In this document: piece by piece, positions 1,685-59,435 of the stretch
Layout: the number at the start of each line of letters is the position of its first letter
Numbering within the stretch: position 1 is the first letter of the stretch
Assembly (NCBI GenBank): GCA_023250955.1
Contig: JAHEZQ010000006.1
Coordinates: forward strand, 1-64,000
DNA: 64,000 bases
Origin: Melioribacter sp.
GTDB taxonomy: Bacteria > Bacteroidota > Ignavibacteria > Ignavibacteriales > Melioribacteraceae
Direction: 5' to 3'
Made by a program: the position numbers and the translations under genes
The notes under the pieces: model-generated
Databases searched by the model: none
The model's input: the letters and a program-made list of their open reading frames with translations, nothing else
Told to the model about the DNA's origin: nothing

Positions 1685-3487
1685 TTACCCTTTCGTCCAA
1701 AGTTTATTTACTACTCCAATCAATATTATTCCGCTAACAATAAATACTGCTAACAGAATAAAAGCATAAGTCATTCTTCCATACAAAAAATTACCAATTG
1801 TAAAAAGTGCAGACCAAATAACGACACATCCTGAAAACCAGCCAAGCAATCCGAGCGGAATATTTTCATGTGACGATTTTGCATCGGCTTCCGATATTCC
1901 TGCTTCTTCACGTATCTTTTTCCAACCAGGACCAAACGGACGAATGTTTTTATAAAACTCGATTAATGTTTTACGGTTAGTTTGTGGTCCTAAATAAGCA
2001 GTTACAACCCAGCTTATAGTTGTAAATATAATTGTAATTATCAATGCAATGTGAGGACTAAAATGTAATCCGCTTTTGTTTAATATCAATAAAAGTATCG
2101 AAATGAAAAATGAACTTGCCATTGCGGCAACTTCGCACCATGCATTTATTCTCCACCAGAACCATCGCAATAAATAAAGTAATCCCGTTCCTGCTCCAAT
2201 CTGAAGAATGACATTAAATGCGTCATAAGCAGTATCCAAGAAAAATACAAGTGCGGATGCGCTAAAGAATAATACAACTGTTGCAACCCGTCCCATTAAT
2301 ACATAATGTTTTTCGCTTTTATCTTTACGAATGAACCGCCTATAAAAATCATGAACTAAGTAAGATGCGCCCCAATTGAGATGAGTTAATATTGTTGATG
2401 AATTAGCGGCGATTAATCCGCCAACCATTAAACCGATAAATCCAACCGGAAGAAATTTTAACATTGCAGGATAGGCTATATCATGCCCAAGTAATTTGGG
2501 ATCTAGATTCGGAAATGCATTTTGAATATCTGACAACTGGGGGTAAATAATTATTGAACAAAGTCCGACAAGAATCCATGGCCATGGTCTTAAAACATAG
2601 TGGGCAATATTGAAAAATAAAACTGCACCTAGAGAATCTTTTTCCGATTTAGATGCGAGCATTCTTTGAGCAATATAACTTCCACCGCCTGGTTCTGCAC
2701 CCGGATACCAAACAGCCCACCACTGAACAGCAACCGGCATTATAAAAACTGCTATTGCTATATCCCAATTGTTGGAAAAATCCGGAAGTATATTTAAATA
2801 ATTTATTCCACCCGGCCCTTTTATTTTTGAAAGTTTATCAACAAGACCACTCAATCCACCAATTTGCGGTAACTGCAATGCAAAATAAGCTGCGGCAATC
2901 ACTGCTGTCATCTTAATAAAAAATTGAATCATATCAATTACTAAAACTCCCCAGAGACCAGAATAAGTTGCAAAGACAACATTTAATACACCAACAAGTA
3001 AAAGTGTTTGCCATCGTTCAAAACCAAATAATATTCCTGCAATCTTACAAGCAGCAAGATTTACTGTTGCCATAATCATACAGTTAAAGAAAAATCCTAA
3101 ATAAACTGAACGGAATCCTCTGACAAAACTTGCGGCTTTGCCTGAGTAACGAAGTTCATAAAACTCAAGATCGGTCATTACACCCGAGCGCCTCCATAAA
3201 CGTGCGTAGAAAAAAACTGTTGAAACTCCTGTTAACACGAAAGCCCACCAAACCCAGTTTCCGGCTACACCGTTTGTGCGGACAATGTTTGTTACAAGGT
3301 TTGGAGTATCACTACTGAATGTTGTTGCAACCATCGAAAGTCCAGCTAACCACCAAGGAACAGAACGTCCGGAGGCAAAAAATTCTGATGTGCTCTTTCC
3401 CGCTCTTCTACCAAAAAATAGGGCTGGGACAAAACAAATAAGGAGAGAAGCTACTATGATAATCCAGTCTAATAGTTGCAGATGCAT
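1685..3487 (-). CDS. sodium:solute symporter (SSS family)
   Basis: A 600-residue protein made almost entirely of hydrophobic helices. It starts with a membrane segment followed by FFGRRAGKSTSEFFASGRSVPWWLAGLSM, the SSS signature region near residues 24-55, where transporter families such as PutP, SglT and sialic-acid symporters begin. Expected role: sodium-driven uptake of a small solute across the inner membrane. It has roughly 14 membrane segments, somewhat more than the 13 of the family core. The substrate cannot be told from sequence. The gene stands alone between convergent MFS and co-directional coaD, 45 bases away. Confidence 0.85.
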   Translation of the reverse strand: MHLQLLDWIIIVASLLICFVPALFFGRRAGKSTSEFFASGRSVPWWLAGLSMVATTFSSDTPNLVTNIVRTNGVAGNWVWWAFVLTGVSTVFFYARLWRRSGVMTDLEFYELRYSGKAASFVRGFRSVYLGFFFNCMIMATVNLAACKIAGILFGFERWQTLLLVGVLNVVFATYSGLWGVLVIDMIQFFIKMTAVIAAAYFALQLPQIGGLSGLVDKLSKIKGPGGINYLNILPDFSNNWDIAIAVFIMPVAVQWWAVWYPGAEPGGGSYIAQRMLASKSEKDSLGAVLFFNIAHYVLRPWPWILVGLCSIIIYPQLSDIQNAFPNLDPKLLGHDIAYPAMLKFLPVGFIGLMVGGLIAANSSTILTHLNWGASYLVHDFYRRFIRKDKSEKHYVLMGRVATVVLFFSASALVFFLDTAYDAFNVILQIGAGTGLLYLLRWFWWRINAWCEVAAMASSFFISILLLILNKSGLHFSPHIALIITIIFTTISWVVTAYLGPQTNRKTLIEFYKNIRPFGPGWKKIREEAGISEADAKSSHENIPLGLLGWFSGCVVIWSALFTIGNFLYGRMTYAFILLAVFIVSGIILIGVVNKLWTKG

Positions 3488-56980: not shown

Positions 56981-57634
56981 TTAATACTCCACAAAAAAAG
57001 CGAGTACGCCAACAATAATTAAAACAATTCCGCTAATCAGTTTATCGTGATGTTCCAGAAAATGCCAGTTCAGTTTTCGCACACCCTTAGATGCAAAATG
57101 CACAAGAAACATCATTCCCAAAACTGTAACAAAAAAATAAACTATAGAAACAATTCCAATTCCCAACCAGCCTAAACGACTTGCGGTGAAATAGTAAACT
57201 TCAATTTCCAAACATGGAGAGAAGAACATTGCAACACTGAGTGTTAGTACAATTGATCTTTTACTTTTCCGTTTTTCAATTATATCATCAATGTGGATAT
57301 GATGATGGTGATGAGCCGCTTTTATTAAACTGTGCCTGTATTCCAAATAGAAATAGATTAAACCAAGAGCTATTAATATTGTTGGTGCTACATAATGAGT
57401 AATGTAATGATAAGACTCTGATAGTTTATAGCCGACCAAGCCAACAATAATTCCGATCATAACTGTACTGATTGTATGTGAAGCCCCGGTGATTGCAGTA
57501 ACTGTCAACGTTTCTGTATCGGTCCATTTCTCAGCCTTTCCGATTGCAATTAACGGAAGCCAGTGACTTGGTATTGTAGCATGAACCAAGCTAAGCAGAA
57601 GACTTCCTAAAAATATTTGTATAATTGAATTCAC
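56981..57634 (-). CDS. NicO/HupE-like membrane protein with His-rich loop
   Basis: A 217-residue inner-membrane protein with six to seven helices. The first helix carries SLVHATIPSHWLPL, the second region ITGASHTISTVMIG, both typical of nickel/cobalt efflux or TauE/NicO-like families. A cytoplasmic or periplasmic loop at about 106-117 is AAHHHHHIHIDDI, a likely metal-binding stretch. Metal transport is thus probable, but the metal and direction are not determinable. It is downstream of trpB2 in the same direction, separated by 99 bases holding a palindrome. Confidence 0.7.
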   Translation of the reverse strand: MNSIIQIFLGSLLLSLVHATIPSHWLPLIAIGKAEKWTDTETLTVTAITGASHTISTVMIGIIVGLVGYKLSESYHYITHYVAPTILIALGLIYFYLEYRHSLIKAAHHHHHIHIDDIIEKRKSKRSIVLTLSVAMFFSPCLEIEVYYFTASRLGWLGIGIVSIVYFFVTVLGMMFLVHFASKGVRKLNWHFLEHHDKLISGIVLIIVGVLAFFVEY

Positions 57635-57733: not shown

Positions 57734-59080
57734 TTATACTACTGCAACCTTAGCGTAATTTGTCTTTCCAGAATAATTATCAAGCTGATCTTTCAAAAAC
57801 ATTTCGTAAGAACCTAAATCTAAAAATCCATTTCCCGATAAATTGAACAAAATTGTTTTTCTTTCTCCTGTTTCTTTACAATGCAATGCTTGAACAATTG
57901 TTTCCTTAATTGCATGAGAACTTTCCGGTGCCGGAACAATCCCTTCTGTCTGAGCAAATAACTGTGCTGCTTGAAAGACTTCCATCTGCTCATAAGCATT
58001 TGCATTAATAGCCCCGATATTATACAGCAAGGAAATTAAAGGTGCTGCACCATGATAACGCAATCCACCCGCGTGTATCTTAGGAGGAATGAAGTTATGA
58101 CCAAGCGTGTACATCTTTAGAAGCGGAGTCATTCCTGCTTCATCGCCAAAATCATATTCATAATTACCTTTGGTAAGAGAGGGACAAGATGCCGGTTCAA
58201 CAGCAATTACTTTTAGATTTTTCTTAACGCCCGTAAGTTTATCCCGCAAAAAAGGAAATGCAATTCCGGCAAAGTTACTGCCGCCACCTACACAACCAAT
58301 AACTACATCGGGATATTCATCAAACATTTCCATTTGTATCCGCGCTTCCTCGCCAATAATTGTTTGATGCAGCAATACATGATTCAATACGCTTCCCAAG
58401 CTGTAATTCGTATCATCACGCTGAACTGCCATTTCAATTGCTTCACTTATGGCAATTCCCAGAGAACCCGGAGATTCGGGATCTTTGTTCAAAACATTTC
58501 GTCCTGCATTAGTTAGAATTGATGGACTTGCATGAACTTCAGCGCCAAATAATTTCATAAATGTTTTGCGATATGGTTTTTGATTATAGCTCACTTTTAC
58601 CATAAATACTTCGCACTCCATTCCAAAATGTTTACAAGCCATTGCAAGCGCACTTCCCCACTGTCCTGCCCCGGTTTCAGTTACAAGTTTTTTTATTCCA
58701 GCTTGCTTATTGTAATATGCCTGCGCATAGGAAGTGTTTGTCTTGTGGCTTCCGGTTGGATTAGCCCCTTCATACTTAAAAAATATTTTTGCAGGCGTTT
58801 GCAATGCTTTTTCAAGATTGGTTGCGCGTATTAACGGAGTTGGCCTGCTAAGTTTATAAAGATCACGAACCTCATCCGGAATTTCTATAAAGCGTTCTTG
58901 TGTTACTTCTTGTTTGATCAACTCCATTGGGAAAATAGCGGATAGATCATGCGGACCAACCGGTTGTTTGGTGCCTGGATGAAGCGGCGGATCCATTGGT
59001 ACAGGAATATCTACCATAACATTGTAATAATGAGTTGGCATTTTGGTTTGATCAAGAAAAACTATTTTACTGCTTGACAT
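57734..59080 (-). CDS. trpB: tryptophan synthase beta-like enzyme (TrpB2 type)
   Basis: A 448-residue PLP enzyme, about 50 residues longer than TrpB1. PLP-binding Lys113 lies in NPTGSHKTNTSYAQ. It also has VTETGAGQWGSALAMACKHFGMECEVFMVK, VIGCVGGGSNFAGIAFPFL (phosphate loop) and FNLSGNGFLDLGSYE. The long N-terminal extension and KPYRKTFMKLFGAEV mark the TrpB2 group, which can make tryptophan from indole and serine without TrpA. No trpA is nearby. A perfect AAAGGAGG lies 5 bases before the ATG, and a Trp-codon leader with tandem terminators precedes it (59099-59263). Confidence 0.93.
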   Translation of the reverse strand: MSSSKIVFLDQTKMPTHYYNVMVDIPVPMDPPLHPGTKQPVGPHDLSAIFPMELIKQEVTQERFIEIPDEVRDLYKLSRPTPLIRATNLEKALQTPAKIFFKYEGANPTGSHKTNTSYAQAYYNKQAGIKKLVTETGAGQWGSALAMACKHFGMECEVFMVKVSYNQKPYRKTFMKLFGAEVHASPSILTNAGRNVLNKDPESPGSLGIAISEAIEMAVQRDDTNYSLGSVLNHVLLHQTIIGEEARIQMEMFDEYPDVVIGCVGGGSNFAGIAFPFLRDKLTGVKKNLKVIAVEPASCPSLTKGNYEYDFGDEAGMTPLLKMYTLGHNFIPPKIHAGGLRYHGAAPLISLLYNIGAINANAYEQMEVFQAAQLFAQTEGIVPAPESSHAIKETIVQALHCKETGERKTILFNLSGNGFLDLGSYEMFLKDQLDNYSGKTNYAKVAVV

Positions 59081-59085
59081 ATGAA

Positions 59086-59093
59086 CCTCCTTT
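59086..59093 (-). promoter_or_regulatory. strong ribosome binding site of trpB2
   Basis: The minus strand reads AAAGGAGG, fully complementary to the 16S rRNA 3' end, 5 bases before the ATG. It is the strongest ribosome site I noticed in the window. It begins just after the U-tract of the second attenuator terminator, so translation depends on transcription passing both terminators. Confidence 0.75.
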
Positions 59094-59098
59094 GGTTT

Positions 59099-59133
59099 AA
59101 AAAGAAAAAGCCGATGAATGGAAGTTCACGGCT
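59099..59133 (-). terminator. second attenuator terminator (segments D:E) before trpB2
   Basis: On the minus strand AGCCGTGAA (59133-59125) pairs with TTCATCGGCT (59118-59109) with one bulged T. The loop is 6 bases. It is followed by TTTT-C-TTT-TT (59108-59099). Segment D can instead pair with segment C (59145-59154), which would destroy this terminator. Confidence 0.75.
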
Positions 59134-59139
59134 GGATAC

Positions 59140-59173
59140 AAAAAAGCCGTGAACGTTTTTACCATCCACGGCT
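59140..59173 (-). terminator. first attenuator terminator (segments B:C) in the trpB2 leader
   Basis: On the minus strand AGCCGTGGA (59173-59165) pairs with TTCACGGCT (59153-59145), nine pairs including one G-U. Six T residues run from 59145 to 59140. Segment B overlaps the part that pairs with the end of the leader peptide frame, the classical arrangement for amino-acid attenuation. Confidence 0.8.
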
Positions 59174-59197
59174 TGTTGTTAATTTTTATTTAAAGCA

Positions 59198-59263
59198 TTA
59201 GGATGGCAAAGAATTGTTTCTCCACCACCAATTATTGCTTAATATGTTATTTGTGTTTGTCAT
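59198..59263 (-). CDS. trpL: tryptophan leader peptide upstream of trpB2
   Basis: A 21-codon frame, ATG at 59263-59261 and TAA at 59200-59198. Trp codons occupy positions 12-14 (TGG TGG TGG at 59230-59222), a run that is very unlikely by chance. The peptide starts MTNTNNILSNN and ends RNNSLPS. The last two codons plus preceding bases form segment A of the attenuator. There is no Shine-Dalgarno; the promoter places the transcript start only a few bases before the ATG, so translation may be leaderless. Its function is to sense charged tRNA-Trp, not as a product. Confidence 0.85.
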   Translation of the reverse strand: MTNTNNILSNNWWWRNNSLPS

Positions 59264-59271
59264 CCTAAGAA

Positions 59272-59302
59272 TAAAAGTATAATTGTTATGCGGTTTTGTC
59301 AA
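59272..59302 (-). promoter_or_regulatory. promoter of the trp leader-trpB2 unit
   Basis: On the minus strand TTG (59302-59300), a 20-base spacer, and TACTTTTA (59279-59272), the TTG-N20-TAnnTTTA layout seen at rpsT and tRNA-Lys. The same bases also read as a sigma-70-like TTGACA (59302-59297) with TATACT (59281-59276) at 15-base spacing. Only 8 bases separate the downstream box from the leader ATG. Confidence 0.55.
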
Positions 59303-59363
59303 TGTTTAACTCTTCTTTTATCAAAAAAAAATCTAAACTTTTAAATGAAATCGAGCATTTATG

Positions 59364-59435
59364 TGAGCGCGGGTGGGCTCGAACCACCGACCTTCACCTT
59401 AAAAGGGTGTTGCTCTACCACTGAGCTACGCGCCC
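59364..59435 (-). tRNA. tRNA-Lys (anticodon UUU)
   Basis: On the minus strand the acceptor stem is GGGCGCG paired with CGCGCTC (one G-U). The D arm is GCTC-AGTGGTA-GAGC. The anticodon loop CTTTTAA has UUU at 34-36, in a stem with four good pairs. The T arm is GGTGG-TTCGAGC-CCACC, and the discriminator is A. The CCA end is not encoded. It is 72 bases long and lies upstream of, and in the same direction as, the trp leader, which has its own promoter. Confidence 0.95.

Follow-up and report, generated by a model that had tools for sequence, protein, structure and literature searches.

The trpB2 gene in the analysed stretch of a Melioribacter sp. genome (hereafter the window, 64,000 nucleotides in all) is preceded by an element that, judging from its letters, is a ribosome-mediated tryptophan attenuator. 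We consider it fairly probable that this attenuator contains a relay, in which a single stalled ribosome would free segment C, and C would capture segment D, thereby disarming a second terminator (T2) and freeing the trpB2 ribosome site. The relay is proposed on the basis of the leader peptide, the alternative pairings, the two-sided changes in helices 1:2, A:B and B:C, the finding that D and its complement in the ribosome site are kept or missing together, and the pathway genes missing from the genome; from these we infer the order of folding, termination, translational masking and induction. Two terminators behind one leader peptide are already known from erm(K), and the new feature here is a complementarity between arm D and the ribosome site of trpB2, seen in the clade of the window. 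Overall, the interpretation given in an initial annotation of this DNA is partly supported.

Leader, alternating segments and upstream region

The features of the element are listed below in the direction of transcription; the names in brackets follow the segment scheme of the Escherichia coli trp attenuator.

59297..59302, minus strand: TTGACA, promoter-like hexamer 5' of the leader (sequence; candidate promoter)
59272..59279, minus strand: TACTTTTA, putative -7-like box (sequence, relatives)
59198..59263, minus strand: leader peptide MTNTNNILSNNWWWRNNSLPS, 21 codons, followed by the stop, which the coordinates include (sequence; orthologue leaders)
59230-59222, minus strand: three consecutive Trp codons, TGGTGGTGG (sequence)
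59218..59229, minus strand: segment 1, GGUGGUGGAGAA, overlapping the Trp codons, with its partner at 59213-59202 (fold; two-sided changes)
59201..59210, minus strand: segment A (classical segment 2), UUUGCCAUCC (sequence; two-sided changes in A:B)
59161..59172, minus strand: segment B (classical segment 3), 5' arm of terminator T1 (two-sided changes in A:B and B:C)
59145..59154, minus strand: segment C (classical segment 4), 3' arm of T1 (B:C and C:D comparison)
59140..59145, minus strand: T1 U-tract, six U (sequence)
59124..59133, minus strand: segment D, possible partners C (10 bp), E (in T2) and the trpB2 ribosome site (duplexes, modelled pairing)
59120..59129, minus strand: GUGAACUUCC, reaching from D into the D-E loop, with 10 pairs to the Shine-Dalgarno region including two G-U (duplex of -15.1 kcal/mol)
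59109..59118, minus strand: segment E, 3' arm of terminator T2 (T2 hairpin analysis)
59099..59109, minus strand: T2 U-tract, UUUUUCUUUUU (sequence)
59081..59090, minus strand: trpB2 ribosome-binding region, GGAGGUUCAU (sequence)
57734..59080, minus strand: trpB2 (TIGR01415), 448 aa (NCBIfam match)

The initial annotation had described five alternately pairing segments behind a leader of 21 codons that includes a run of three for Trp. The leader is present, and the letters bear out the pairings: A pairs with GGAUGGUAAA (B plus loop) through 10 pairs, one of them G-U; B and C form a hairpin (59172-59146, minus strand) followed by six U (59145-59140); C and D match perfectly over 10 bp; and D and E form a hairpin (59133-59109) followed by UUUUUCUUUUU. 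The segment count has to be raised to at least six, the classical 1:2 hairpin having been missed (in the minimum-energy fold, 59213-59202 pairs with 59229-59218, which overlaps the Trp codons), and to seven if the ribosome site is included. The second terminator, present as described, is weak in the window (about -9 to -10 kcal/mol), and a simple terminator scan picked up T1 and not T2. In sequence B resembles D and C resembles E, and GUUCAC in C resembles the stretch GUUCAU of the ribosome site. The element is more than chance folding: the 183 nt fold with -52 kcal/mol (z -4.84), which is equalled by 0 of 200 shuffles, as is the fold begun right after the leader stop codon (z -4.88).

Stretches like the TTGACA region occur in many near relatives, and the hexamer is not listed by the scan that picked up T1. 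TACTTTTA resembles what we take to be the Bacteroidota-type -7 box, and a start from this box would leave at most a few nucleotides of 5' untranslated region ahead of the leader ATG. A TAnnTT(T/A)-like box ends 4-8 nt 5' of the leader start in 20 of 36 leaders, counted without a chance control (59264-59279 in the window), and this placement suggests a leaderless or nearly leaderless leader mRNA. In L141 and L142 (about 2987-3067, minus strand), the leader ATG lies approximately 5 and 7 nt past the 3' end of a tRNA-Lys gene, a gap that leaves no room for a promoter of its own, so that tRNA processing might make the 5' end of the attenuator mRNA. The counterpart tRNA-Lys of the window is located at 59363-59435, approximately 100 nt upstream.

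Comparative support among relatives

Close TrpB2 proteins (E at most 1e-190) were present in 38 of 164 genomes of the order to which the window belongs, and the upstream region was readable in 37 of the 38, L143 having been dropped since its contig ends before the leader. In the TrpB2 tree, the 37 regions comprise a near clade of 21 (support 100/99), which includes the window, and 16 outer relatives. The nearest relatives are metagenome-assembled genomes (MAGs), labelled mostly Ignavibacteria, Melioribacter or Stygiobacter and in some cases Bacteroidetes. Apparent repeats of counted loci (L031-L035, L038, L040 and L042) were left uncounted, as was L043, an apparent repeat of L145; L036, L037 and L039 are L137, L138 and L141, respectively. 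L041, in which T2 is unclear, stands outside the segment counts, and L167 and L173, trpB2-type loci found with a model of the element, stand outside the 37, L167 being used for the C:D comparison only.

A leader with at least 2 Trp codons was found in 36 of the 37 upstream regions, the exception being L137, which was therefore omitted from the 36-row alignment. T1 reaches -13.8 kcal/mol or better in 36 of 37 and only -4.0 kcal/mol in L137. The latter locus (= L036) has no Trp leader and a weak T1 remnant, yet retains the CACGGC-U end, and is perhaps a decaying attenuator.

In the 36-row alignment, cells changed on both sides of a pair number 33 in 1:2 (slid-partner controls at most 11), 30 in A:B (at most 13) and 12 in B:C (at most 3). 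Since B cannot hold A and C simultaneously, mutually exclusive helices are each supported, and the alignment of orthologous upstream regions, with its recurrent Trp leaders, left the initial interpretation unrefuted. Further pair types in 1:2, A:B and B:C were not clearly above shuffles (reached by 60, 186 and 197 of 500, respectively), nor was the number of 1:2 pairs showing two-sided change (reached by 271 of 500), in controls that ignore the relatedness of the rows.

A metabolite riboswitch or a protein-binding leader, for example one like the Rfam trpB motif RF04312, appears very improbable. The point in its favour is a sub-threshold RF04312 match over the 1:2 hairpin and T1 (28.4 bits, cut-off 59), but the cut-off is exceeded in 0 of the 164 genomes of the order and the leader with in-frame Trp codons recurs in 36 of the 37 regions. 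RF04312 was accordingly rejected as the identity of the element, as was RF01692 (Bacteroid-trp; 21.5 versus 49 bits), and a sub-threshold match to RF00426 (SCARNA15; 28.5 versus 65) was taken as chance. The Rfam search returned no family at cut-off here other than tRNA, and Trp_leader was not among the matches listed for the window.

Beyond the close TrpB2 group, inspection of 23 upstream regions from less closely related TrpB2 genes in the order (L027-L030, L111-L129; L130 was too short) revealed the element in none. Nine of the 23, L027, L029, L116 (WPWRR stop), L111, L118 (WWPPRGL stop), L112, L123 (WWLSC stop), L128 and L030, carry a leader that contains Trp and has a GC-rich, hairpin-like stretch where its Trp or stop codons lie, with no terminator seen, and perhaps use a Rho-dependent or translational mechanism. 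Among L044-L110, from other phyla, a crude screen found WWW solely in L051, from a MAG labelled Syntrophus aciditrophicus, where a WWW leader and a single terminator-like hairpin lie approximately 324 nt upstream of trpB2. Inspection of 20 model hits assigned 11 to trpE-like genes, 2 to the trpB2 type (L167 and L173) and 7 to chance-like terminators. The trpE-like genes, from the same order, are preceded by Trp-rich leaders with a single terminator (L158-L164, L166, L169, L171 and L172), and the downstream genes of all 6 that were checked, of the 11, matched PF04715.

A genome from another family of the same class (G286, locus L181) has WWW codons, T1 and a D complementary to C, with no clear T2. 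The frame of the Trp codons is interrupted upstream by a TAA, and the stretch from this stop to the Trp codons offers no ATG, GTG or TTG, so that the leader may be broken or unusually started. The GUUCA match described below is missing in G286; the ribosome site of this genome, GAGGUUAU, has a different complement, AUAACCUC, located between T1 and D (-12.0 kcal/mol), a single case.

Order of synthesis, the second terminator and the ribosome site

The outcome of attenuators is generally set by the order of RNA synthesis. At equilibrium with T1 complete, B:C beats A:B in 29 of 29 RNAs when the ribosome occupies the last Trp codon, and a ribosome placed at the first gives the same outcome in 27 of 29 (energies throughout refer to free RNA), and the window alone folds into a B:E helix enclosing C:D. 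Because B:C wins at equilibrium, the switch must rest mainly on the order of synthesis, the ON state being kinetic. Equilibrium folding, as a poor proxy for that order (B:C in 29 of 29), was therefore set aside as a test of the first switch, and RNAs cut before C and before E were used. In the footprint model, RNA ending before C forms A:B in all 36 cases when the ribosome occupies the last Trp codon. Moving it on to the stop codon leaves A:B below 3 expected pairs in 30 of the 36, and 4 of the 36 retain 6 or more. RNA ending before E forms C:D in 24 of 25 D-bearing RNAs (a set without L136, L139, L140, L142 and others), the miss being L037, identical to L138.

The relay would thus run as follows. 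When charged tRNA-Trp is scarce, the leader ribosome would stall on WWW and cover segment 1; A would take B ahead of the synthesis of C, blocking T1 and leaving C free, and free C would take D ahead of the synthesis of E, disarming T2 and, in the clade of the window, keeping D away from the trpB2 ribosome site. When tryptophan is plentiful, the ribosome would reach the stop codon and cover A, so that B:C terminates, and in RNA that is read through nonetheless, free D would form T2 or mask the ribosome site.

When E is included and C is unpaired, C:D is the winning helix in 14 of the 15 near-clade members whose D is intact; among the 16 outer relatives it prevails in only 4, the remaining 12 favouring D:E. 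As modelled, the relay is energetically favoured in the clade of the window and mostly only kinetic elsewhere; the proposal of the initial annotation that one stall flips both switches is thus energetically favoured in that clade and in just 4 of the outer relatives. Support from C:D itself is slighter than for the upstream helices, with two-sided changes in 9 cells in 4 pairs against slid controls of up to 7 cells in 4 pairs; pair D+4 is G-C in L146 and L167 in place of A-U.

A hairpin with a U-rich tail corresponding to T2 was detected in 26 of the 37 regions, namely, in every one of the 16 outer relatives (-9.5 to -19.8 kcal/mol) and in 10 of 21 near-clade members (-5.0 to -9.4 kcal/mol), and was undetected in 11 (L007, L009, L137, L011, L012, L014, L010, L136, L139, L140 and L138). 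In an unlikely alternative, T1 would be the sole switch: T2 and D would have arisen from a duplication of T1, C:D would be a by-product and T2 would merely cut leakage. The likeness of B to D and of C to E fits a duplication, as do the preference for D:E over C:D in 12 of 16 outer relatives despite free C and the occurrence of T1 without T2 in L007, L009, L011 and L012. Against this, D is still complementary to C where E has decayed, and the D+4 pair is kept in L146 and L167 by the G-C exchange.

The relay would gain a further output from the complementarity of D (GUGAAC) to GUUCA of the trpB2 ribosome site. In the window, GUGAACUUCC and GGAGGUUCAU form the 10 pairs listed above; in the 160 nt upstream, the ribosome site has no better partner than D, and the match is the strongest of its kind among 23 window genes examined, with 6 of 31,992 sampled window 16-mers matching the ribosome site equally well. 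Among the 21 near-clade members, 15 have both D and the ribosome-site match and 6 have neither, the latter being L138 and a clade of 5 around L007. GAGGUUCA precedes the AUG in all 15 members whose D is intact, in none of the 6 lacking D and in none of 17 outer regions (the 16 plus L041). The D:ribosome-site duplex amounts to -9.8 to -17.1 kcal/mol in the 15 D-bearing members versus -1.9 to -5.3 kcal/mol in the 16 outer relatives. The combined state changes 3 times on the TrpB2 tree, where well-supported branches force at least 2 changes, and the pattern is readable as one gain and two joint losses. The letters of D and of the ribosome site are nearly invariant, and the association is one of co-occurrence, not covariation.

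Modelled exposure gave a mixed picture. With C taken, the highest pair probability in D:ribosome site exceeds 0.6 in 13 of the 15; in the other two, D:E prevails, with 0.91 versus 0.09 in the window and 0.99 versus 0.01 in L008. In L006, D:ribosome site stays (0.88) even with C free. Taking C raises the cost of opening the ribosome site in 13 of 15, by 4.0-6.1 kcal/mol in L010, L136, L139 and L140, with a mean change of +2.3 kcal/mol in the 15 D-bearing members versus -0.35 kcal/mol in the 16 outer relatives (rank test, p 0.0004, a purely descriptive value as the rows are related). The opening cost is not specific to D:ribosome-site pairing, because it also rises in L138 (+3.7 kcal/mol), which is without this pairing. 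In 13 of 15, the stretch from the Shine-Dalgarno (SD) sequence to the AUG loses openness once C is taken; in the window, its openness is unchanged (0.47 and 0.48). The SD core GAGG is less open in only 7 of 15 and not lower in 8; in L139 and L140, the clearest cases without T2, it becomes more open (0.03 to 0.38 and 0.09 to 0.47, respectively), because the core is already paired elsewhere in the ON model. An anti-SD arm is therefore well supported as conserved complementarity and only partly by modelled exposure, and in the window anti-SD action would be at most secondary to T2.

These results also bear on a plain tandem-terminator attenuator of the initially annotated kind, in which T2 would be a second transcription decision or a backup stop and the match between D and the ribosome site an accident of shared ancestry. 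We regard this explanation as improbable, albeit less so than T1 acting alone. It would account for T2 in 26 of 37 regions, including every outer relative at up to -19.8 kcal/mol, for the advantage of D:E over D:ribosome site in the window and L008, and for an SD core that, in 8 of 15, is no better hidden once C is taken. It sits poorly, however, with the 5 of 15 members that keep D and its ribosome-site complement without a detected T2 (L010, L136, L139, L140 and L014), with the joint lack of both in L138 and the L007 clade of 5, and with a match that in the window is the strongest among the 23 genes. The relay remains our preferred reading, weakened since D:E outcompetes D:ribosome site in the window and the SD core loses no modelled exposure in 8 of 15, and since C:D two-sided changes barely exceed the slid controls and L006 keeps D:ribosome site with C free.

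A wider proposition, to which we give slightly less than an even chance, is that of a seven-segment chain (1, A, B, C, D, then E and the ribosome site), in which one stalled ribosome would set two terminators and the translation start, with the relatives recording the change of T2 into a translational lock. The comparison suggests a series from strong T2 without the SD match, through T2 with the SD match and the SD match without T2, to the loss of both.

TrpB2, indole and known attenuators

That the target is trpB2, as initially annotated, was corroborated by the TIGR01415 score of the downstream gene product (665 bits versus a cut-off of 518.85); on the same protein the TrpB model TIGR00263 stays below its cut-off (170.7 versus 392.45). 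In the genome of the window, estimated to be 100% complete, searches did not find TrpA or TrpC. No TrpB1-level match was found; there were five matches, and those shown besides trpB2 were weak and partial. The two chorismate-binding enzymes are isochorismate synthase and PabB, leaving no TrpE. Two PRAI-like proteins score above the Pfam cut-off and below the NCBIfam PRAI cut-offs among those listed. On this gene content, TrpB2 would be the only visible route from indole to tryptophan, and it is expected to join indole and serine. The suggestion of the initial annotation that the enzyme scavenges indole fits a genome without TrpA, TrpC, TrpE and TrpB1, indole salvage by this TrpB2 being itself an inference. 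Across 96 genomes searched, TrpA is missing in 9 of the 26 that have this TrpB2, one of them 66% complete and one with a sub-cutoff match. In the accessible text of PMC11085991, TrpB-type enzymes are reported to use indole in Bifidobacterium, and the same is cited for TrpB1 and TrpB2 of Thermococcus kodakarensis. The protein adjoining trpB2 (56981-57634, minus strand) has no NCBIfam match and, in Pfam, only a sub-cutoff MFS match.

The trp operon of Bacillus subtilis is under dual control by TRAP. The E. coli-type trp attenuator (trpL; Rfam Trp_leader) shares with the window element a Trp-codon leader, the 1:2/2:3/3:4 alternation and an intrinsic terminator; the window adds D, E, the second terminator and the match of D to the ribosome site, and the target is trpB2, not trpE. 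The trpE-like leaders of the same order likewise combine a Trp-rich leader with a terminator, one each by inspection, with no D or E seen. In tlrB (yxjB) of B. subtilis, no overlapping antiterminator was identified and the ribosome itself blocks both hairpins, whereas in the window release would pass from C to D. The principle of trp attenuation is summarised in PMC3641672. The initial view of the element as a two-terminator extension of classical attenuation is correct for the window, but such an extension has a precedent in erm(K) of Bacillus licheniformis, described in the available part of PMC4335068 as two adjacent terminators behind one leader peptide, and T2 is absent or undetected in 11 of the 37 regions. 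T1 plus T2, in 26 of 37, is the erm(K)-type architecture, a likeness in which we claim no homology; the signal for erm(K) is macrolides, according to the accessible text of PMC5418344, and here it is tryptophan. Salmonella mgtCBR likewise has two attenuators in one leader, and its authors noted that one of the stem-loops could in addition block access to the ribosome site of mgtC; as far as the available text goes, it differs in having two open reading frames, two signals and stem-loops unlike intrinsic terminators (PMC3641672). In Corynebacterium diphtheriae, attenuators are predicted ahead of trpB2A, where trpB2 shares an operon with trpA, and the accessible part of that report mentions no tandem element (PMC1262725). 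According to the portion of PMC11109978 available, the RF04312 trpB motif consists of a hairpin with a terminator behind it and occurs in Firmicutes and Fusobacteria; RF04312 and RF01692 are linked to trp genes like the window element, both being below cut-off here. A literature search of titles and the starts of abstracts, with subscription journals mostly outside its reach, found no description of the element or of an attenuator arm shared between a terminator and an SD sequence.

Attenuators are usually classed as transcriptional or translational, and the series seen among these relatives suggests conversion from one to the other with the sensor unchanged, by a route in which a terminator arm would become an anti-SD arm. 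The relay offers an account of why a second gate would be added. The element would also provide a concrete case of tryptophan sensing ahead of an indole-using enzyme in organisms in which the tryptophan pathway is missing.
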